Positions 20,876-49,291 of a stretch of DNA of 49,291 nt are shown in pieces. A program made the position numbers and the translations under genes. The notes beneath the pieces were generated by a model. The model made no database searches, was not told where the DNA came from, and was given only the letters and a program-made list of their open reading frames with translations. The number at the start of each line of letters is the position of its first letter. The stretch's first letter is position 1. The stretch lies in assembly GCA_026391555.1 (NCBI GenBank), contig JAPLEB010000136.1:1-49291 (forward strand). Direction: 5' to 3'. Origin of the DNA: Bacteroidia bacterium (GTDB taxonomy: Bacteria > Bacteroidota > Bacteroidia > Bacteroidales > VadinHA17).

Positions 20876-22102
20876 ATGAGTTTAAAACTTTTCACAATAA
20901 GTTCAATGTATCCCGGGAACCTGGGATCATTCTATAAACGGTTTAATGGATTAAAAAATTTATCTTATGATGAGCACTATAACTTACTTCTGAATGATAC
21001 CACAGAGTTTGTCGGATCATATACAAAGACTTTCAGAAAACTTGGCATTGATGCAAAATGCGTTATTGCAAGCGATTTTATACTACAAAACAAATGGAGA
21101 TCTGAAAATTGTAATAAATCCGGAAACGATAAAAAGGTACTTTTTGAACAGGTTAAAAGATTTCAACCTGAAATTCTTAGCATTGAAAATTTAAGTTACA
21201 CCGACAAAGAGTGGCTGGAAAATATAAGAGAGAGTGTCAAAAGCATAAAATTGATAATAGCCCATCATAGTTCGCCTATTGGTCCAAAAATTATTGAACG
21301 ATTACAATATGTCGATTTTGTAATAACCTGTACCCCCGGATTAAAGCAGGATATGGAAAACAAAGGTTTTCGTTCATACCTTGTTTATCATGGATTTGAT
21401 AAAGAACTTCTAAGCAGGATAAACCAGGATAATATTTTTCCGCAAAATAATCTCATTTTTTCAGGTTCACTTTCACCCGGGGCAGGTTTCCATGGAGATA
21501 GAATCGATTTAGTTGAGAACATTCTTAAAGCTGATTTAGATATTGCTTTATATGTAAACCTTGAGAAGAGATATAAAATCATAGCAAAACAATCAATAAA
21601 TCTGGTAAATGAGTTTCTCAAAAAGATTAAGATGACCAGGCTTCGGAATTATATTCCATTGCTTCAATATGAGGAAACATCAATAAGAAACTATTCGGAT
21701 ACCTTACTTGAGAAAAAGCAACAACCGGTTTTTGGAATAGATATGTACAACTTGTTTAAAAATTCTAAAATAGTTTTAAATTTCCATATAGGTGTTGCAG
21801 GAAATTATGCAGGAAATATGAGACTATTTGAAGTGACAGGCGTTGGAAGTTGCTTATTAACAGACAACAAGGCAAATCTAAGCGATTTATTTATTCCTGG
21901 TAAAGAAGTTGTTGTTTATGACAGTATGGAAGATTGCATTGAGAAAGCAAAATGGCTCCTTGATAATGAAGATGAACGGGTGAAAATTGCCCGGGCCGGT
22001 CAACAAAAAACCCTGATATCACATACCGTTGAGAACAGGTGCAGTCTAATTCTAAAAATCATTGATAATGAATTGAACAATAAGAAAATTAATAAAATCT
22101 AA
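20876..22102 (+). CDS. Glycosyltransferase, CgeB/GT4-like
   Basis: 408-residue protein. The C-terminal third matches the glycosyltransferase domain found in CgeB-type proteins (NMRLFEVTGVGSCLLTDNKA, then IPGKEVVVYDSMEDCIEKAK and VENR), where the Glu in LFEVTG is the usual donor-phosphate contact. The N-terminal half (MSLKLFTISSMYPGNLGSFY) fits the acceptor domain but is poorly conserved. It is followed by the oxidoreductase gene after one base, so the three genes to 24244 form one translational unit. The sugar transferred is unknown; a WbpB/WbpE-derived uronate is a reasonable guess from position only. Confidence 0.78.
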   Translation: MSLKLFTISSMYPGNLGSFYKRFNGLKNLSYDEHYNLLLNDTTEFVGSYTKTFRKLGIDAKCVIASDFILQNKWRSENCNKSGNDKKVLFEQVKRFQPEILSIENLSYTDKEWLENIRESVKSIKLIIAHHSSPIGPKIIERLQYVDFVITCTPGLKQDMENKGFRSYLVYHGFDKELLSRINQDNIFPQNNLIFSGSLSPGAGFHGDRIDLVENILKADLDIALYVNLEKRYKIIAKQSINLVNEFLKKIKMTRLRNYIPLLQYEETSIRNYSDTLLEKKQQPVFGIDMYNLFKNSKIVLNFHIGVAGNYAGNMRLFEVTGVGSCLLTDNKANLSDLFIPGKEVVVYDSMEDCIEKAKWLLDNEDERVKIARAGQQKTLISHTVENRCSLILKIIDNELNNKKINKI

Positions 22103-22103
22103 A

Positions 22104-23123
22104 ATGAATAAGTTGAAATTCGCAATAGTGGGTTGTGGTAGGATCGCGGAAAGACATGCAGAACAAATAGCTCGTTTGGCAAAGCTGGAGGCTGTATGCG
22201 ATATAGTTGAAACACAGGCAAATAAACTTGGACAAAAGTATGGATCAAAAGTCTATTATAACATTGATGATTTACTTTTAAATGAAAAAGAGATAGATGT
22301 GGTTTCAATTTGCTCCCCAAACGGACTACATTCCGAACATTCAATCAAGGTGTTTCGCAAAGGATTTCATGTTTTATGTGAAAAACCGATGGCAATAAGT
22401 GTTTTTGATTGCGGAGAAATGATAAAAGAAGCCGAGAGAGCAAATAAAAGGCTTTTTATCGTAAAACAAAATCGTTATAATCCACCGGTTCAGGCTATTA
22501 AAGAAGCTCTTGATGAAAACAGGCTTGGAAAAATATTTAGTATTCAATTGAATTGTTTTTGGAATCGTAATCCTGAATATTATGCTCAATCAGATTGGAA
22601 AGGCACTAAAAATCTTGATGGTGGAACCCTTTTTACACAATTCAGCCATTTTATAGATCTTCTGTATTGGCTGTTTGGAGATGTTAAAAATGTTGAAGCC
22701 GTTACCAAAAATTTTATGCACGATCAGATCATAGAGTTTGAAGATACCGGTGTAGCTTTGATTGAATTCTATAATGGGATAATCGGGACCATTAACTATA
22801 ATGTAAATAGCTATTTAAAGAATATGGAGGGCTCTTTAACTATTTTTGGAGAATTGGGAACTGTTAAAATTGGAGGTCAGTATTTAAATGAACTTGAATA
22901 TCAGAATATCAGGGATTTTAAAATTACTAACCTGCCAGCTGGAAATCCTCCCAATAATTATGGGCAGTATGTAGGATCAATGTCTAATCATAACAAAGTA
23001 TATGAGAATGTAATTGAGGTGTTAGTAAATCAGGGAATAATTGCTACTAACGGTTTCGAAGGATTAAAAACAGTTGAGATAATTGATAAGATATATACTG
23101 CTGCTAAAAAGAATTTAAAATGA
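22104..23123 (+). CDS. wbpB: Gfo/Idh/MocA-family dehydrogenase (WbpB/WlbA-like)
   Basis: 339-residue NAD-dependent sugar oxidoreductase. The Rossmann motif FAIVGCGRIAERHAE is at the N-terminus, the family motif is CEKPMA, and the active-site helix lies in DGGTLFTQFSHFIDLLYWLFG. WNRNPEYYAQSDWKGT supports the WlbA/WbpB subgroup, which oxidises C3 of UDP-GlcNAc-uronate. Its stop overlaps the next start by four bases (ATGA), and the next gene is the WbpE-like aminotransferase that uses the 3-keto product. The WbpA dehydrogenase and WbpD acetyltransferase of the full pathway are not in the window. Confidence 0.82.
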   Translation: MNKLKFAIVGCGRIAERHAEQIARLAKLEAVCDIVETQANKLGQKYGSKVYYNIDDLLLNEKEIDVVSICSPNGLHSEHSIKVFRKGFHVLCEKPMAISVFDCGEMIKEAERANKRLFIVKQNRYNPPVQAIKEALDENRLGKIFSIQLNCFWNRNPEYYAQSDWKGTKNLDGGTLFTQFSHFIDLLYWLFGDVKNVEAVTKNFMHDQIIEFEDTGVALIEFYNGIIGTINYNVNSYLKNMEGSLTIFGELGTVKIGGQYLNELEYQNIRDFKITNLPAGNPPNNYGQYVGSMSNHNKVYENVIEVLVNQGIIATNGFEGLKTVEIIDKIYTAAKKNLK

Positions 23124-42013: not shown

Positions 42014-43783
42014 ATGAAGATCAGATCACTTAGTCTGCTGACTATAAAATTACTATTTATAATGCTCCTGGTTTCCTGTTCGGGAACCGGTAAAAAGAAA
42101 ATCAGTATTCTCGAAACAACAGATGTTCATGGGGTTATATTACAATATGATTTCATTGAAAAAGAAAAGTTAAATGCTTCACTTGCATCGTCTTTTACCT
42201 ATATCAGGCAGATCAGAGAGGAGAAGGATGTAACCATTCTTCTTGATAATGGGGATAATCTGCAGGGTCAGCCGGAAGTTTACTATTATAATTTTATAGA
42301 TACAGTTTCACCACATTTTTGTGCCGAAGTCATGAATTATATGGGATACGATGCCGGCACAGTTGGAAACCATGATGTGGAGGCTGGTCATGGAGTTTAC
42401 GACAGGTTAGTTAAAGAATACAACTTTCCACTGATAGCCGCCAATGCAATCGATATTAAAACAGGAACCCCATATTTTAAACCTTATTATGTTATTGTAA
42501 AAGAGGGAATTAAAATTGCTGTTTTTGGTCTTGTAACACCGGCAATCCCGAACTGGCTCCCCCCGGAACTTTATGCAGGAATTGAATTCAGAGATATGGT
42601 TGAAACAGCAAAACTTTGGATGCCTGTTATTTTAAATGAAAAACCGGACCTCGTTGTGGGTCTGTTCCATTCCGGCTGGGACAGGTCGAAGGAGGAGTTT
42701 CAGAAGAGTGATCCTTTAAACGAGAATAGCTCTGCCGATGTCGCTTACAATGTTCCAGGCTTCGACATTATTTTTAATGGTCATGATCATAGGCTGGCGA
42801 ATGAAAAATTTGTTAATTTAGTCGGAGATACAGTCCTGGTACTTGATGGAGGAAGCAGATCTGAAAAGATCGCCCAGGCTGATATAACATTGAGTTCCAG
42901 GAAAATAAAAGGAAGAAAACAAAGGAGAATTACCGGTAAGATAATTAATGTTGCTGATTTTAAACCAGACCCTGAATTCATTACCAGATTTACTCCACAG
43001 CATGAAAAAATTGATGAATATGTGAATCGGGTTATTGGTAATTCATCTGCAACAGTTTCATCACGAGATGCATATTTCGGTCCATCAGCTTTTATTGACA
43101 TGATTCATTTAATACAGCTTGAAATAACAGGAGCCGACATTTCATTTGCTGCACCATTATCCTTTGATGTTCATATACCTGAAGGACCAATAACTATTGG
43201 AGATATGTTCAAACTCTACAGGTTTGAAAATATGCTTTACACAATGACTATGTCAGGAGATGAGGTTCAAAAATATTTGGAGTATTCATACTCCGGGTGG
43301 TTTAACACGATGAATGGTCCGGGCGATGTAATGCTTAAATTGCGTGCCGGGAAAGATGGGAAACCAATTATTACCAATGGAAAAGCATGGCTGAAAAACC
43401 AGCCTTATAATTTTGATTCAGCTGCAGGAATCGATTATTCAGTAGATGTAAGCAAACCGGAAGGAGTAAGAATTATTATTAGTGGTTTTACCGATGGCAG
43501 ACCATTTGAAAGAAATAAATTGTACAAAGTTGCCGTTAACTCATATCGTGGAAATGGAGGAGGAGGACATTTTGCAGAAGGTGCAGGAGTAGGAAAAGAT
43601 GAACTCAGATCGAGACTTGTTTCCTCAACTGACAGAGATTTACGGTACTATATTTTAAAATCAATTGAAGCTAAAAAAACGGTCAATCCTGAACCATTGA
43701 ATAACTGGAAAATAATTCCGGAAAAATGGGTAAAACAAGCTACTTCCCGTGAATATGCAATGCTGTTTGGAACCAAAAAATAG
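42014..43783 (+). CDS. 5'-nucleotidase / 2',3'-cyclic phosphodiesterase family lipoprotein
   Basis: 589 residues. A lipoprotein signal (LLFIMLLVSC) is followed by a calcineurin-like metallophosphatase domain: ETTDVHG, LLDNGDNLQGQP, GNHDVEAGH, LFHSGWDRS and FNGHDHRLAN supply the two-metal site. The C-terminal 5'-nucleotidase domain (about residues 340-570) holds the substrate-stacking region FTDGRPFERNKLYKV and YRGNGGGGHF. It would release phosphate from extracellular or periplasmic nucleotides. It has its own promoter candidate and is followed closely by queE. Confidence 0.9.
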   Translation: MKIRSLSLLTIKLLFIMLLVSCSGTGKKKISILETTDVHGVILQYDFIEKEKLNASLASSFTYIRQIREEKDVTILLDNGDNLQGQPEVYYYNFIDTVSPHFCAEVMNYMGYDAGTVGNHDVEAGHGVYDRLVKEYNFPLIAANAIDIKTGTPYFKPYYVIVKEGIKIAVFGLVTPAIPNWLPPELYAGIEFRDMVETAKLWMPVILNEKPDLVVGLFHSGWDRSKEEFQKSDPLNENSSADVAYNVPGFDIIFNGHDHRLANEKFVNLVGDTVLVLDGGSRSEKIAQADITLSSRKIKGRKQRRITGKIINVADFKPDPEFITRFTPQHEKIDEYVNRVIGNSSATVSSRDAYFGPSAFIDMIHLIQLEITGADISFAAPLSFDVHIPEGPITIGDMFKLYRFENMLYTMTMSGDEVQKYLEYSYSGWFNTMNGPGDVMLKLRAGKDGKPIITNGKAWLKNQPYNFDSAAGIDYSVDVSKPEGVRIIISGFTDGRPFERNKLYKVAVNSYRGNGGGGHFAEGAGVGKDELRSRLVSSTDRDLRYYILKSIEAKKTVNPEPLNNWKIIPEKWVKQATSREYAMLFGTKK

Positions 43784-43802
43784 ATTTTGCAATTTCAGAA
43801 AC

Positions 43803-44432
43803 ATGAATAATGATTCAACCGCAATACCAGATGGAGCCAGGCTTCCTTTAGTGGAGGAATTTTTCTCATTACAGGGTGAAGGTTACCATACAGGGAAAGC
43901 CGCATATTTTATAAGGTTAGGAGGGTGCGATGTAGGATGCAGCTGGTGCGATTCCCGTTTCTCCTGGAACCCAAACCTGCACCCAATGGTTGAAACAGAT
44001 GCAATAATCGACCGAATGACAAAATCTGGCACAGATTCTGTTGTTGTTACAGGCGGAGAACCTCTTATGTGGAACCTTGATTATTTATGCACAGGATTGA
44101 AGAAAAAGAATATTCGTACTTTTATAGAAACTTCAGGAGCATATCCCTTAAGTGGAGATTGGGACTGGATATGCCTGTCACCAAAAAGAAATATGCCACC
44201 GGTTAGAGAAATTTGTAAAGTTGCAGACGAGTTGAAAGTAATAATTCAGGATAAAAGTGATTTTGAGTGGGCAGAAAAATACCGCGGAATGGTTACCGGT
44301 AAATGCAGATTTTTCCTGCAGCCTGAATGGAGCAGATTCGAAACCATTATTCCTGAAATTGTTGAGTATATCAAAAGAAACCCCATCTGGAGAATCTCTC
44401 TTCAGGTGCATAAATATATGCACATACCCTAA
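43803..44432 (+). CDS. queE: 7-carboxy-7-deazaguanine synthase (QueE)
   Basis: 209-residue radical SAM enzyme that makes 7-carboxy-7-deazaguanine for queuosine. The start at 43803 (MNNDSTAIPDGARLPLVEEF) gives the usual N-terminus EFFSLQGEGYHTGKAAYFIR. The SAM-cluster motif is CDVGCSWC (CxxxCxxC) and VVTGGEPLMWNLDYLC is the GGE motif. LSPKRNMPP and the C-terminal LQVHKYMHIP are also typical. It ends six bases before the PorE-like gene. Confidence 0.95.
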   Translation: MNNDSTAIPDGARLPLVEEFFSLQGEGYHTGKAAYFIRLGGCDVGCSWCDSRFSWNPNLHPMVETDAIIDRMTKSGTDSVVVTGGEPLMWNLDYLCTGLKKKNIRTFIETSGAYPLSGDWDWICLSPKRNMPPVREICKVADELKVIIQDKSDFEWAEKYRGMVTGKCRFFLQPEWSRFETIIPEIVEYIKRNPIWRISLQVHKYMHIP

Positions 44433-44438
44433 GTAGTC

Positions 44439-46376
44439 ATGAAGTATTTTTTTATTATATTTATCTTTATAACTTCCTTCGCGGTAACACGCAACAGTTT
44501 TTCTCAGGGTCTTCATACATCGTCCAATAAAGCCCTTAAGGTATACAATGAGGGAGTTACAGCTTATGATTATCTTGATTATAATAAAGCTGAAATTAAT
44601 TTTAGGGAAGCTATCTCGCTTGATAATAGATTCTATGAAGCATATATGATGCTTGGAGAATTGATGGCAAAAAGGAAAAGATATTTCGAGGCTTCAACTA
44701 GCTATAAGGCTGTAGTAAAGATCGATTCGTTGTTTTTTATACCTGTCTTTTTCAACCTGGCTAATGCCGAAATGATGTCAGGTGATTATCATAATGCACT
44801 TATTCATTTCAATGTTTATATCGCTCAGACAGGTATGTCCGAAAAGAATAAAATCTTTGCAATAAAAAATGTAAAAAATTGCGAATTTGCTTTAAATGCA
44901 ATGAAACACCCGGTACCGTTCAATCCCGTCAGCGTAGGGAGTTCTATAAATACGCAAGATGAAGAATACTGGCCTTCAATAACAGCTGATGGTCAGTCAT
45001 TAATGTTTACAAGACAGCCAGCTCCTCTTGATATCCCTTCACCTTTCGGGCAAGTTCAAGAGGATTTTTATTTAAGTCATTTTTCAGATAATAAATGGCA
45101 AAAAGCATATAATGCAGGCGCACCTCTTAATACCAGTCAAAATGAAGGGGCTCAAACTCTTTCATCAGACGGTAATTATATGTTTTTCACTGCCTGCGAC
45201 CGGCGAGGTGGATTAGGTAGCTGCGATCTTTATTTTTCAGCTTTTATTGAAGGAAGATGGTCAGAACCTTCTAACCTGAGGACTCCGGTAAATACTTCTT
45301 ACTGGGAATCACAACCATCAATAAGTGCCGATGGCAAAACTCTGTTTTTTTCAAGTAACCGGCCCGGTGGTTTTGGGGGTAAGGACATTTGGTTTTCAAT
45401 ACTGAATAATCAAAATGGTTGGACGGTTCCCGTGAACATGGGGAAGAACATTAACACAGATGGAGATGAAATGTCACCATTTATTCATTTCGACGGGAGA
45501 ACTCTGTATTTCGCTTCTGACGGAAGAGTTGGTATGGGAGGCTTTGATATTTATATGACCAGGATGAATATTGACAGTACCTGGACAGAACCACAAAACC
45601 TTGGTTATCCAATAAACACTTATAATGATGAAATGGGACTTGTAATTGAGTCGGGAGGAGAAAAAGCATATTTTTCCTCAATCAGAGATAAGCCGAACGG
45701 GAAGGATATCTTCTATTTTAACCTTTATGAATCTGTCAGACCAAGTCCAGTCTCTTATATGAAAGGTAAAGTTTACGACAAAGAGACAGGAAAGTTATTA
45801 AAAGCAGATTATGAATTAATTAACTTTTCGACAGGCAAGATCACAATAAAGAGTTCTACCGATGGAGCCGGGAATTTTCTGGTTTGTCTGCCTTCGGGAT
45901 ATAATTACGGTATTAATGTCAGCAAAGCCGGGTATCTGTTCTATTCCGAAAATTTTATGTTTGAAGGACAACATACAGTAGTGGAGCCATATATTAAAAG
46001 AATAATTCTGAACCCGATTAAAGTAGGAGAGAAGATGCAGCTCTCAAATGTATTTTATGAAATTGACTCCTGGCAATTAAAGAAGGAATCTACTTTAGAA
46101 TTAAATAATCTGGCAAACCTCCTTTCAGACAACAAAGACATTATTATTGAAATAGGAGGTTATACCGATTCAACAGGGTCAGTCGAATATAATCTTTCTT
46201 TATCGGAAAAAAGAGCAATATCTGTTGTTAACTACCTTGTAAATAAAGGTATATCATCTGACAGACTTAGATATAAAGGGTATGGAAATAAATCACCAAT
46301 AGGGGATAATGTAACTGTTGAGGGCAGAAAACTAAACAGAAGAACCGAAGCTAAAATTATTGAACGGAAAAAATAA
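44439..46376 (+). CDS. TPR / PD40 propeller / CRD / OmpA protein (PorE-like)
   Basis: 645 residues with a signal peptide (cleavage near SFSQ). Domains in order: TPRs at about 25-135 (AYDYLDYNKAEINFREAISL), a PD40/WD40-like beta-propeller at about 165-410 with repeated SADGKTLFFSS-type blades, a carboxypeptidase-regulatory-like domain at about 430-510 (MKGKVYDKETGKLLKADYEL), and an OmpA C-terminal domain at about 535-645 (GGYTDSTGSVEYN, NRRTEAKI) for peptidoglycan binding. This order is that of PorE, a type IX secretion component of Porphyromonas, but several paralogues with this architecture exist per genome, so a role in secretion is not certain. Located in the periplasm or outer membrane. 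Confidence 0.82.
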   Translation: MKYFFIIFIFITSFAVTRNSFSQGLHTSSNKALKVYNEGVTAYDYLDYNKAEINFREAISLDNRFYEAYMMLGELMAKRKRYFEASTSYKAVVKIDSLFFIPVFFNLANAEMMSGDYHNALIHFNVYIAQTGMSEKNKIFAIKNVKNCEFALNAMKHPVPFNPVSVGSSINTQDEEYWPSITADGQSLMFTRQPAPLDIPSPFGQVQEDFYLSHFSDNKWQKAYNAGAPLNTSQNEGAQTLSSDGNYMFFTACDRRGGLGSCDLYFSAFIEGRWSEPSNLRTPVNTSYWESQPSISADGKTLFFSSNRPGGFGGKDIWFSILNNQNGWTVPVNMGKNINTDGDEMSPFIHFDGRTLYFASDGRVGMGGFDIYMTRMNIDSTWTEPQNLGYPINTYNDEMGLVIESGGEKAYFSSIRDKPNGKDIFYFNLYESVRPSPVSYMKGKVYDKETGKLLKADYELINFSTGKITIKSSTDGAGNFLVCLPSGYNYGINVSKAGYLFYSENFMFEGQHTVVEPYIKRIILNPIKVGEKMQLSNVFYEIDSWQLKKESTLELNNLANLLSDNKDIIIEIGGYTDSTGSVEYNLSLSEKRAISVVNYLVNKGISSDRLRYKGYGNKSPIGDNVTVEGRKLNRRTEAKIIERKK

Positions 46377-46460: not shown

Positions 46461-47297
46461 TCAGATAGCGATCATTGTATTAACATATTTATTGATATTA
46501 ACGTCGGAGTTTGCTACCACCTTAGCCGGGATAGAAAAATAGATTCCTGCCCCTGTAAGACCATTACATTCAATCCAGATAGTTCCATTCAGCATTTGAA
46601 TCAGCTTTCTGGCCAGGATCAGATTGATCGCTGTATATGTATCATTGTGTTTAGATAGCGATTCATTAATATCCTCAGTTTGAAGAAATTCTTTGCATTT
46701 GAAATAACCCTGGCCGGAATCGAGAACATAGAAGGTTACCTTGTCATCCCTGAAATAGTACCCAATCTTAATATACCCTGATTTTGTGTTTTTTATTGAA
46801 TTCTGAAACAGACTGCGAATTACCCTGAAAACCCTGTTCTTATCAATAAAAACCTCAGAAGAATTAGAAAACTGGATCTCTGTTACGAGTTCCAAATCCA
46901 TGTGATTCTCTTTCCTTATTATTTCCCTGAATTCTGAAAGAAGATCATCAAGAATATTATCGAGTTTGCAGATTTTTGAATCGGCTTTTGAATTACCCGT
47001 ATCAATTATTGCCGAATCAAGAAAACTGTCGAATAGCTCTATTAATTGCTCACATGAGCTTAAAATCTGATTACTGAATTCCTCACGTTCTGAATTGTTA
47101 CAACAATTCTCTTTCATCAGGAATGAAAATGCAACAATTGCATTCATGTGCGTTCTCATCTCATGAGACATCCCTGTCAAAATTGTTGGACAATTTATCA
47201 TATTGCTCTTTAATGAATTCATACCATTACCCATATCCCTGATATTCAATTGTGAATTCTCGCTTGTTGCTGTATCATTTTTAGGAAGATCAAACAT
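46461..47297 (-). CDS. Degenerate cytoplasmic histidine-kinase-like protein
   Basis: 278 residues without signal peptide, membrane helix or sensor domain. The phosphoacceptor helix is recognisable (TGMSHEMRTHMNAIVAF) with the His kept, but the normally invariant Pro after Arg-Thr is His. The ATPase domain keeps the N-box Asn (LFQNSIKNTKSG) and a DSGQG G1 box, but the G2 box (GxGLGL) is missing: the equivalent place reads NDTYTAINLILARKL. It may be a pseudokinase or phosphotransfer/scaffold protein. It starts 22 bases after the TPR membrane protein gene and is clearly in its operon, ended by the hairpin at 46.4 kb. Confidence 0.75.
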   Translation of the reverse strand: MFDLPKNDTATSENSQLNIRDMGNGMNSLKSNMINCPTILTGMSHEMRTHMNAIVAFSFLMKENCCNNSEREEFSNQILSSCEQLIELFDSFLDSAIIDTGNSKADSKICKLDNILDDLLSEFREIIRKENHMDLELVTEIQFSNSSEVFIDKNRVFRVIRSLFQNSIKNTKSGYIKIGYYFRDDKVTFYVLDSGQGYFKCKEFLQTEDINESLSKHNDTYTAINLILARKLIQMLNGTIWIECNGLTGAGIYFSIPAKVVANSDVNINKYVNTMIAI

Positions 47298-47319: not shown

Positions 47320-48066
47320 CTATTTTAATTTTCTAATAATCTTTTTTGCATCATTCCCGTAAATGCCGCCCTCATTTTTAATAATTTCAAGTTGATTAAC
47401 TGCCTTCTCTTTTTCATCAGTCTTTACATAACATAATGCCAGATACCATTTAGCAGTTTCAATAAAAAGGTTATTATTATCGCTAATAACATTAACAAAT
47501 GATTGTTTTGCTTCAGGAAATTTCTTTTCTTCAAAATTTGAAACGCCGTTTAAAAACGCAGATTGCATATTGTTTGGTTCTGATTCCAATACTTTACTGA
47601 AATAAACGGCAGCATTCTGGTAGTCATGTGTGTTGTAATAATCAAGCGCCAACGCAAAATCAGCATTTTGCGTGTATTTACCAGTCCTTGTTTCTGTAGT
47701 TGGTTCATAGGATTTGTAGAACCTGTTAAATATTTCATCATTACTCAGATTTTTGCCGGTAAATAATGTAATACTACCAACAATGACAAGTCCGGCAATA
47801 ACTGCAGCATATTTTTGATAAACCGGTTTCTTCGAATTTCTGACAGGTATATTCGCTTCTCTTCTCTTTTCAATTATAGATAGCTTGTTCCTGAGTGAAA
47901 TAATATCTTGGTTTTTAAGAACCTCATCGGTACGTTTCCTTAGATTGACCTCATCCCTGAGCTTCTCATTTCCATCAAGTTCCTTCCGGAACCACTGTTC
48001 TTCAGAATTGCTCATCTCTGCGGCATTATACCTTTCGATGAAATATGAAAAATCAATTGTTTTCAT
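47320..48066 (-). CDS. Single-pass membrane protein with periplasmic TPRs
   Basis: 248 residues. The N-terminal 80 residues are cytoplasmic and charged, and resemble the regulatory tail of anti-sigma-like proteins (FSYFIERYNAAEMSNSEEQW) without a zinc-binding motif. A single membrane helix spans about 84-103 (YAAVIAGLVIVGSITLF), followed by a TPR domain (about 135-245: YYNTHDYQNAAVYFSKVLES, FEEKKFPEAKQSF). The gene is first in an operon with the kinase-like gene. The topology, with protein-protein repeats outside and a short tail inside, suggests signal transmission, but the partner is unknown. Confidence 0.75.
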   Translation of the reverse strand: MKTIDFSYFIERYNAAEMSNSEEQWFRKELDGNEKLRDEVNLRKRTDEVLKNQDIISLRNKLSIIEKRREANIPVRNSKKPVYQKYAAVIAGLVIVGSITLFTGKNLSNDEIFNRFYKSYEPTTETRTGKYTQNADFALALDYYNTHDYQNAAVYFSKVLESEPNNMQSAFLNGVSNFEEKKFPEAKQSFVNVISDNNNLFIETAKWYLALCYVKTDEKEKAVNQLEIIKNEGGIYGNDAKKIIRKLK

Positions 48067-48096: not shown

Positions 48097-48127
48097 CAAA
48101 TGTATTTCACCAACATACTTAACACAA
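48097..48127 (-). promoter_or_regulatory. Promoter for the TPR/kinase-like operon
   Basis: On the minus strand TTG (48127-48125), a 20-base spacer and TACATTTG (48104-48097) fit the Bacteroidota consensus, 31 bases before the ATG at 48066. The -33 half overlaps the first CATWATGCTT palindrome. Confidence 0.65.
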
Positions 48128-48155
48128 GCATAATGCTTTACATAATGCTTTACAG
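48126..48155. promoter_or_regulatory. Operator candidate: AAGCATAATGCTT palindrome plus tandem repeat
   Basis: AAGCATAATGCTT (48126-48138) is a perfect 13-bp palindrome apart from its central base. CATAATGCTTTA is repeated head to tail at 48129-48140 and 48141-48152. It touches the -33 element of the TPR operon promoter, where a bound regulator would affect RNA polymerase directly. Confidence 0.5.
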
Positions 48156-48228: not shown

Positions 48229-48247
48229 AAGCATTATGCTTCACAGC
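48229..48247. promoter_or_regulatory. Second operator candidate AAGCATTATGCTT
   Basis: AAGCATTATGCTT at 48229-48241, continued by CACAGC, matches the site about 100 bases away (CATWATGCTTYACAGC consensus). Two separated sites could support DNA looping or serve both the peptide gene and the TPR operon. The rest of 48067-48370 is AT-rich with no gene. Confidence 0.45.
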
Positions 48248-48330: not shown

Positions 48331-48356
48331 TTTTCTGTTTTCAATAAAACAGAAAA
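48331..48356 (-). terminator. AT-rich hairpin downstream of the small peptide gene
   Basis: TTTTCTGTTTT (48331-48341) and AAAACAGAAAA (48346-48356) form a perfect 11-bp stem with a four-base loop, 15 bases beyond the peptide stop codon on the minus strand. Position suits a transcript end, though the stem is AT-rich and lacks a U tract on that strand. Confidence 0.5.
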
Positions 48357-48370
48357 AATATTATTCACTA

Positions 48371-48511
48371 TCAGATTATAATTGGAGGTTCAGGTGGTAA
48401 TATTATCGGGTCACCTTCTGCGTCTCCGCCACGAACATAAATCATCTCTTCATTTGACAGTGCAAACTCATTAAAAATGTTTTTTGTAGATTCGAAATTC
48501 AGGGTTTTCAT
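48371..48511 (-). CDS. 46-residue double-glycine leader peptide (RiPP/bacteriocin-precursor-like)
   Basis: A small gene reading MKTLNFESTKNIFNEFALSN, then EEMIYVRGG, then DAEGDPIILPPEPPIII. The leader LSNEEMIYVRGG closely fits the Bacteroidota GG-type precursor pattern (MK-L-F start, LS-x-x-EM-x-x-V/I-x-GG), the kind cleaved by C39 peptidase transporters. The 17-residue core is acidic, Pro-rich and hydrophobic and has no Cys, Ser or Thr, so lanthionine chemistry is excluded. An AT-rich hairpin follows the stop. No maturation enzyme, C39 transporter or immunity gene is in view; the right-hand neighbour, a secreted TPR protein, is divergent. Too short for routine gene finding. Function is unknown; a signalling or export role is inferred from the leader. 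Confidence 0.75.
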   Translation of the reverse strand: MKTLNFESTKNIFNEFALSNEEMIYVRGGDAEGDPIILPPEPPIII

Positions 48512-48706
48512 AATTCTTTTTTTAAAGTTAATACTAATTCAGGGTAATTCGTAATTCAGTTCTCTTCTATACTGCTACATGTCGGATGATGCCATTTTGT
48601 GACACGAAAATATCAATTATTTTTCAAATATTTATTTATATACACATAATCAGATATTTACAGAATACAAAATTTGGTGTGAATAATGTATTTGATTTGG
48701 TTTTAT

Positions 48707-48714: not shown

Positions 48715-48762
48715 ATTAAGATATTTATATAGTTTTTACCATAGAAAGTGGTGGAATTATTC

Positions 48763-49291
48763 ATGATTAAAATTTTTTACGGTACAAGGTTATTATTATG
48801 CCTGTCTATCCTGACAGGATTTATTTTTTCTTCTGCCAGCCCGGCCGTTGTTATAACCTTCCTGCCCGCACAGGAACAGGATCCGGTTGAATTCACATAT
48901 CAAAAAGATAATGGCATTATAGAAGAAGAAATCAGGCAACTTAATATATATCTGCAACCACTGCTGACGAACGGATCTCTCGACAGAAGCCGGATCGTTG
49001 TTGACAGCATCATTCAAAAAATCGATAACAATAATATATCAGATAGTAGTACATTATCCGAGTCCTATTATTTTATTGGTGTCTATTACTTACTTGCAAA
49101 AAATTATTATGAGTCAATTAAATTTTTTAATATTTCAGTTGCACTTAAAGAAAGCAGAAAGGAGTACGGTGAAAGATTCGCAAAAGCCCTTAATAATATA
49201 GGTGTCGCATACAAAGGTCTCGGAGATTTCAATAAGCTTGAATACTATTCTTTGAAATCTCTCGTAATACGAAAAAAAATTAATGACGAAT
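48763..49291 (+). CDS. Secreted TPR protein, probably a TPR-type sensor (partial, runs off right edge)
   Basis: Open frame of 176 codons from the ATG at 48763 to the window end. A signal peptide or anchor (LLLCLSILTGFIFSSASPA) is followed by tetratricopeptide repeats: SYYFIGVYYLLAKNYYESIK and ALNNIGVAYKGLGDFNKLEY are clear TPR units. In Bacteroidota this layout (signal, periplasmic TPRs) usually precedes a membrane helix and a histidine kinase or LuxR-type DNA-binding domain, but that part would lie outside the window, so the output domain is unknown. It is divergent from the double-glycine peptide gene. Confidence 0.8.
   Translation, partial: MIKIFYGTRLLLCLSILTGFIFSSASPAVVITFLPAQEQDPVEFTYQKDNGIIEEEIRQLNIYLQPLLTNGSLDRSRIVVDSIIQKIDNNNISDSSTLSESYYFIGVYYLLAKNYYESIKFFNISVALKESRKEYGERFAKALNNIGVAYKGLGDFNKLEYYSLKSLVIRKKINDE

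Follow-up and report, generated by a model that had tools for sequence, protein, structure and literature searches.

A conserved double-glycine peptide gene in a candidate peptide-signalling cluster of Bacteroidales

Introduction

Is a frame of 46 codons close to the end of a contig a real gene for a secreted peptide, and if it is, which proteins would read the product? The frame lies in 49,291 nt of contig JAPLEB010000136.1 (assembly GCA_026391555.1; hereafter the window, meaning this whole stretch) from a Bacteroidia bacterium of the Bacteroidales, VadinHA17. An original prediction, made from the DNA letters, described it as a hidden double-glycine (GG) leader peptide with a 17-residue core, followed by a hairpin, with tetratricopeptide repeat (TPR) and kinase signalling genes around it in place of a known maturation cassette. 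Here we report that the gene is conserved and under purifying selection across relatives, and that comparison of relatives gives good support to a conserved gene cluster and promoter around it, which includes an exporter, a TPR-CHAT protease, an extracytoplasmic function (ECF) sigma factor and a putative anti-sigma factor. We consider it fairly probable that the product of the gene serves as secreted ligand in a peptide-signalling cluster that is autoregulated.

Results

The peptide gene was found on the minus strand, where it encodes the 29-residue leader MKTLNFESTKNIFNEFALSNEEMIYVRGG followed by the Pro-rich 17-residue core DAEGDPIILPPEPPIII, just as predicted; among the frames of the 49 kb window, it alone fitted a strict GG-leader pattern. 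Homologues, whose absence would have refuted the prediction, proved to be conserved: we detected relatives of the peptide in 86 of 117 family genomes, spanning 12 of 15 genera (E ≤ 1, a threshold at which the weak end of the match list includes chance matches; best 1.7e-16 outside its own genome). In the wider order, the peptide profile matched 20 of 247 genomes (E ≤ 0.01), and there were no matches to the peptide in a plasmid collection. The leader was nearly invariant among 62 relatives, with G-1, G-2 and M-7 in all 62, R or K at -3 in all 62, and L-12 in 61, so that the double glycine characteristic of leaders of C39-exported peptides was present throughout. The core was variable, with 61 distinct sequences among the 62 and sizes of 14–22 residues; PP was kept in 61, the last residue was aliphatic or aromatic in all 62, net charge was 0 or below in 58, and Cys occurred in three.

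Codon analysis of 63 peptides gave ratios of non-synonymous to synonymous change (pN/pS) of 0.20, 0.31 and 0.44 for pairs of decreasing identity, and across 294 pairs the ratio was 0.31 in the leader versus 0.47 in the core; the peptide gene is under purifying selection across relatives. The window peptide and its nearest relative differ by few changes (4 synonymous, 14 non-synonymous; pN/pS 0.97), so this pair on its own is without visible constraint. A chance frame was also considered, and was ruled out by the conservation and the pN/pS values. The hairpin following the gene was present as described and recurs in relatives, where a stem of at least 9 bp within 110 nt after the stop was found in 27 of 63 loci versus 11% of shuffles.

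Family searches raised the prospect of a ribosomally synthesized and post-translationally modified peptide (RiPP) resembling TIGR04149, with a core that an enzyme encoded elsewhere would modify. The suggestion that the precursor might match a known family held weakly for the relatives, as 5 of 18 members matched TIGR04149, a family of RiPPs modified by radical S-adenosylmethionine (rSAM) enzymes, with a best E of 6.4e-4, but failed for the window peptide, which matched no NCBIfam or Pfam family at E ≤ 1. No dedicated maturase was recognised by eye in the clusters, and the scarcity of Cys in the cores also speaks against such modification, making this explanation very improbable. A radical-SAM-like neighbour at 43749–44432 looks, by its motif, like the housekeeping enzyme QueE.

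The prediction that no known maturation cassette accompanies the peptide did not survive the search for genes beyond 49.3 kb. The TPR and kinase neighbours are present as claimed, and the window stops at 49291 inside the next gene, so that the apparent lack of a cassette is an artefact of the contig end. In the related locus L038, the product of the equivalent gene is 1031 residues long and combines TPR repeats with a CHAT domain (PF12770, E 2.9e-56); next come, in order, a sigma factor, an ABC exporter with a C39 peptidase domain (Peptidase_C39, E 2.6e-35) and an HlyD adaptor. Another contig of the window's own genome, C120, encodes the exporter at 20883–23066, which shares 92% identity with its counterpart in the relative L032. 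The greater part of a TPR-CHAT gene occupies 23770–26715 of C120 and reaches the contig end (CHAT, E 4.8e-54), and relatives of the sigma factor and HlyD adjoin both genes. The C39 catalytic residues Cys14 and His88 were conserved in all 60 exporters and Asp104 in 59, so an exporter with its catalytic residues kept is linked to the peptide in 60 of 66 loci. A lone peptide without export genes was ruled out by the contig end and by the exporter genes on C120. A second relative of C39-type ABC exporters, 34% identical to that of the cluster, was seen elsewhere in the same genome (L063, C155:7886-9991).

The last part of the window (48894–49291) overlaps the right end of C120 (L062) by about 400 bp at 78% identity, within the TPR part of the CHAT gene, so a single gene split between the contigs is too simple an account. 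The divergence would fit two alleles of this putative sensor segment among the population sampled, or else a gene present in two copies.

We fetched 66 related loci by their peptide match, so that only the counts for other genes are informative in that set. The conserved order is HlyD, C39-peptidase ABC exporter, ECF sigma and a divergent TPR-CHAT gene, then the peptide, a membrane TPR protein that is the putative anti-sigma factor, and a histidine kinase. An anti-sigma-like gene was found in all 66 loci, CHAT in 65 (one labelled CHAT2), sigma in 59, the kinase in 58 and HlyD in 44, with several loci cut by contig ends or region limits. Peptide and anti-sigma genes were adjacent on one strand in 62 loci, and CHAT was divergent from the peptide in 62; the remaining four had no strict peptide match. 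The strict pattern misses true members, including four peptide matches (L047, L090, L109, L110) and the variant leaders of L290 and L362, so its counts are lower bounds.

Selection from the opposite direction gave a similar picture. Searching named genome records with the anti-sigma protein retained 80 loci of 116, whose titles name metagenome-assembled genomes (MAGs) of uncultured Bacteroidales, Bacteroidia or Bacteroidetes/Bacteroidota, two with genus names; fens, a lake and digesters are among the sources that the isolate names suggest. In the 72 loci with more than 1.2 kb upstream, CHAT was present in 71 and a strict peptide in 65. Among the loci matched by the peptide profile across the order, 18 lie outside the window's own genome and G049 (L205–L222, with 1.5 kb flanks); 11 of these had a CHAT or anti-sigma relative nearby, three had the C39 exporter only and four had neither.

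Whether CHAT genes mark GG peptides in general was also considered. The idea was ruled out by 40 loci in the class, each around the best CHAT protein of its genome (40 of 58 genomes), which held one strict GG frame that looks spurious. This scarcity of GG frames shows that the peptide link is specific to this kind of CHAT locus. Sigma and anti-sigma relatives occurred in four of the 40, and one of these four, L290, has sigma, anti-sigma, CHAT, the C39 exporter and a GG peptide that the strict pattern had missed.

Several variants of the cluster were observed. A second kind carries a CHAT2 gene (L048, L049, L050, L112, L114, L115, L116, L120, L121, L122), in several cases with adjacent sigma2 and anti-sigma2 genes plus a kinase, and four of these clusters (L050, L112, L115, L122) have a different strict GG peptide. 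A pair of similar GG peptides occurs close to CHAT and anti-sigma genes in one locus (L182, L211), and genome G045 holds a second cluster copy (L362) with an exact promoter and a variant peptide leader ending ...CIHGG.

Core divergence correlated with that of every cluster protein tested in the 46 complete loci of the 66. In partial tests that controlled for exporter, kinase, sigma, anti-sigma N-terminus and CHAT catalytic domain, the core retained correlations with the anti-sigma TPR domain (partial r 0.30, p 0.002) and with the two CHAT TPR halves (0.23, p 0.002; 0.18, p 0.004). When the other proteins were tested with control sets of the matching kind, the correlation vanished for the catalytic domain (-0.03), for sigma (0.08) and for the kinase (0.06), and the anti-sigma N-terminus kept 0.14 (p 0.01). 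These sequence comparisons are suggestive of core divergence following the TPR domains of CHAT and anti-sigma and not the catalytic domain. They also bear on the possibility that the peptide has its role within the producer's own envelope, where it would be a substrate, inhibitor or co-factor for CHAT, a private timer or checkpoint rather than an intercellular signal. The divergent neighbourhood of peptide and CHAT genes in 62 loci and the link of the core to the CHAT TPR halves would suit such a partner, but the linked C39-HlyD exporter suggests passage outside, and core divergence is not tied to the catalytic domain once other proteins are controlled; we regard a private role as quite improbable.

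A promoter-like site precedes the peptide gene. TGTCACA was found upstream of the peptide in 62 of 63 loci, and in 58 full stretches the spacing between TGTCACAAA and a YGACATGTA-like block was fixed at 11 nt, with the last eight positions of the block each conserved at 90–100%; the table of 58 leaves out L033, which is without TGTCACA, and four loci whose stretch is shortened by an early start codon (L081, L095, L099, L108). The peptide promoter does not seem to resemble the -7/-33 type usual in Bacteroidota and would fit an ECF sigma factor; a transcript is predicted to start just after GACATGTA. Palindromic AAGCATAATGCTT-like repeats also occur before the anti-sigma gene, at 48126–48152 and 48229–48241; the stretches compared from seven relatives showed none.

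Beyond the peptide promoters, we found 31 sites with 0–1 mismatch to the motif in the 117 family genomes, two of them in further cluster copies (L352, L362), whereas a reversed-pattern control gave 32 matches at ≤2 mismatches, scaling to about one at 0–1 mismatch. For 22 of the other 29 sites, a same-strand frame of at least 100 residues starts within 300 nt (the start in L341 judged by that of its homologue), and seven are without one (L334, L335, L338, L339, L357, L360, L361). Three types of target recurred, with domains scanned in one example per type and other members called by evident similarity. Six sites (L337, L348, L349, L350, L351, L356) precede an operon for a protein sorted by the type IX secretion system, an S74-type chaperone protein and an RHS-repeat/SpvB/FG-GAP giant, the third frame being short in L348 and cut elsewhere; L363, at 2 mismatches, is a further site of this type. 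Five precede further C39 exporters (L338, L339, L341, L343, L355), and four (L344–L347) a fibronectin-type protein and its partner. Such recurrent targets of near-exact copies suggest that the motif marks a regulon in some relatives.

The targets and cores also inform an alternative in which the C39 exporter secretes a small bacteriocin and the sigma, anti-sigma, CHAT and kinase genes simply regulate it in response to another signal, such as envelope stress or competitors. Typical bacteriocins are cationic, unlike these short, mostly neutral or negatively charged cores with little Cys; no immunity gene was recognised, though none was searched for, and core divergence follows the TPR domains. 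The alternative draws on the promoter preceding other C39 exporters in relatives, and on the use of C39 exporters with HlyD for bacteriocins, as also stated in PMC10352776. We judge it unlikely.

The features of the window are collected in Table 1. The part of the TPR-CHAT protein encoded there shares 45% identity with the N-terminal region of its full-length relative in L032, and the CHAT domain proper lies outside the window on C120. The protein combines TPR repeats with a CHAT domain whose dyad, His861 and Cys908, is invariant in 47 sequences, as in a TPR-CHAT protease. In the structural model, terminal hydrophobic helices (2–23 and 1006–1030) flank the TPR-CHAT body, which suggests a membrane-anchored, exported protein with its TPRs outside the inner membrane, and the best match of the model was Csx29. 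The cluster sigma scored above the TIGR02937 cut-off in all three cases scanned. The membrane TPR protein is probably an anti-sigma factor. It has a TPR domain by Pfam, its model reached a pLDDT of 79.9, and a relative is present at every locus. An anti-sigma gene directly behind its sigma gene was seen in L290 and the type-2 loci, but not in the main clusters. Its N-termini matched zf-HC2 weakly in 2 of 24 cases (best E 0.074), and PADLOC returned nothing for it or for the kinase. The proposal of TPR-type sensors thus stands in that TPR proteins are the best receptor candidates, and changes in that they are not generic sensors, one being a TPR-CHAT protease and the other a membrane TPR putative anti-sigma factor. 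Near the kinase, an OmpA/PD40/TPR protein (44439–46376) resembles the PorE and CHU_0125 families below their cut-offs, and a neighbour of similar size and ending adjoins the kinase in most relatives listed.

Table 1. Positions of the peptide gene and surrounding features in the window
Feature	Position	Strand	Details
Precursor peptide gene, 46 codons and stop	48371..48511	minus	Leader 48425-48511, core 48374-48424, stop 48371-48373
Promoter-like site TGTCACAAA-N11-YGACATGTA	48576..48604	minus	93 nt before peptide start, from the first base of the site
Hairpin, 11-bp stem	48331..48356	minus	3' of peptide stop
Divergent TPR-CHAT gene, N-terminal part (signal-like segment, first TPRs)	48748..49291	plus	Cut by contig end; in-frame ATG at 48763
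248-residue protein, putative anti-sigma factor	47320..48066	minus	N-terminal helices, one membrane segment, TPR domain
278-residue histidine kinase	46461..47297	minus	HisKA and HATPase_c; no sensor domain found; 58/66 loci

Discussion

We infer export, ligand binding and proteolysis from the arrangement and conservation of these genes, and propose the following circuit. The C39 domain would cut after GG and, together with the HlyD adaptor, export the roughly 17-residue core, a step that we hold very probable. The core would then bind TPR domains outside the inner membrane, those of the CHAT protease, the anti-sigma factor or both, a step in which we have moderate confidence. Activated periplasmic CHAT protease would cleave the putative anti-sigma factor, which we put slightly above even, and the freed ECF sigma would transcribe the peptide gene, closing a positive loop. 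In some relatives its targets would also include operons that encode additional C39 exporters and secreted proteins. That the cluster sigma acts at the peptide promoter seems likely. The kinase may tune the circuit. Taken as a whole, this might tentatively be a new class of quorum sensing by peptides among the Gram-negative Bacteroidales, somewhat short of an even prospect in our view, in which an exported GG pheromone is read by co-evolving periplasmic TPRs, a separase-like CHAT protease destroys a TPR anti-sigma factor, and a dedicated ECF sigma switches the pheromone on again, along with a competition-like regulon in some species.

Several observations weigh against this circuit. Locus L352 (G039) has CHAT, an exact promoter and the anti-sigma gene with no recognisable peptide between them, and L033 keeps the second half of the promoter without the -35-like half. 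The co-variation is no more than suggestive, because Mantel tests tend to overstate significance among related sequences and rapidly changing domains contribute more of the signal. The one exact motif match in the window's own genome, unique in the window too, is the peptide promoter, and six other sites there at 2–3 mismatches compare with four reversed-pattern sites at ≤3, so no regulon is shown in that genome. Pfam sigma regions 2 and 4 fell below cut-offs for the L038 sigma, the sole main-cluster sigma scanned with Pfam. For the putative anti-sigma factor, the N-terminal helices gave no anti-sigma domain by profile or PDB sequence match, the Foldseek matches shown for the whole model were TPR proteins, and its gene is not adjacent to sigma in the main clusters. 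No partner for the kinase was identified.

The streptococcal GG pheromones (ComC/ComAB, BlpC) are read by a membrane kinase and a response regulator. The system proposed here resembles ComC and BlpC in its GG leader, C39 exporter, proposed positive loop and, in some relatives, further C39 exporters as targets, but its candidate readers are TPR domains with a protease and an ECF sigma. The linked kinase shows HisKA and HATPase_c only. In the RseA/DegS system, regulated proteolysis of a membrane anti-sigma factor frees an ECF sigma; a protease is likewise proposed to act on a membrane anti-sigma factor here, but it is a CHAT cysteine protease with a linked exported peptide. RRNPP receptors are intracellular (PMC10075063), whereas the present TPR domains are predicted to lie outside the inner membrane. 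The Bacteroidales clusters with peptidase-containing ABC transporters (PCATs) in PMC10352776 share GG precursors, PCAT exporters and, in two of nine, TPR genes; they carry rSAM (in most cases) or LanM enzymes, and its main text is without the words CHAT and sigma. The transmembrane anti-sigma factor DdvA is itself called an anti-sigma in the title of its entry (PDB 8rot), whereas here the protease and putative anti-sigma are separate proteins. In the open-access literature, we found no description of a GG peptide, a TPR-CHAT protease and an ECF sigma together. The find belongs to peptide autoinduction, which is known in kind, and the case for a new class is plausible.

If the proposal is correct, Bacteroidales would have a peptide autoinducer with a TPR-CHAT protease as receptor class and an ECF sigma as output. 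The promoter motif would make regulons computationally predictable, which, with a ligand short enough for synthesis, makes the idea directly testable. The direct precedent for the protease step is Craspase (CASP, type III-E CRISPR), in which the TPR-CHAT protein Csx29 cleaves Csx30, which otherwise inhibits CASP-sigma, as described in PMC10028731, where RseA/DegS-type proteolysis is also named. The present clusters differ in the terminal hydrophobic helices of their CHAT protein, in a putative anti-sigma factor of the membrane TPR type, and in a GG peptide with its exporter that would stand in for the RNA-guided trigger. CHAT proteases would thereby gain a signalling role outside CRISPR, hinting at the source of the protease, anti-sigma and sigma logic of Craspase, which would be the cytoplasmic, RNA-triggered counterpart of the same logic.
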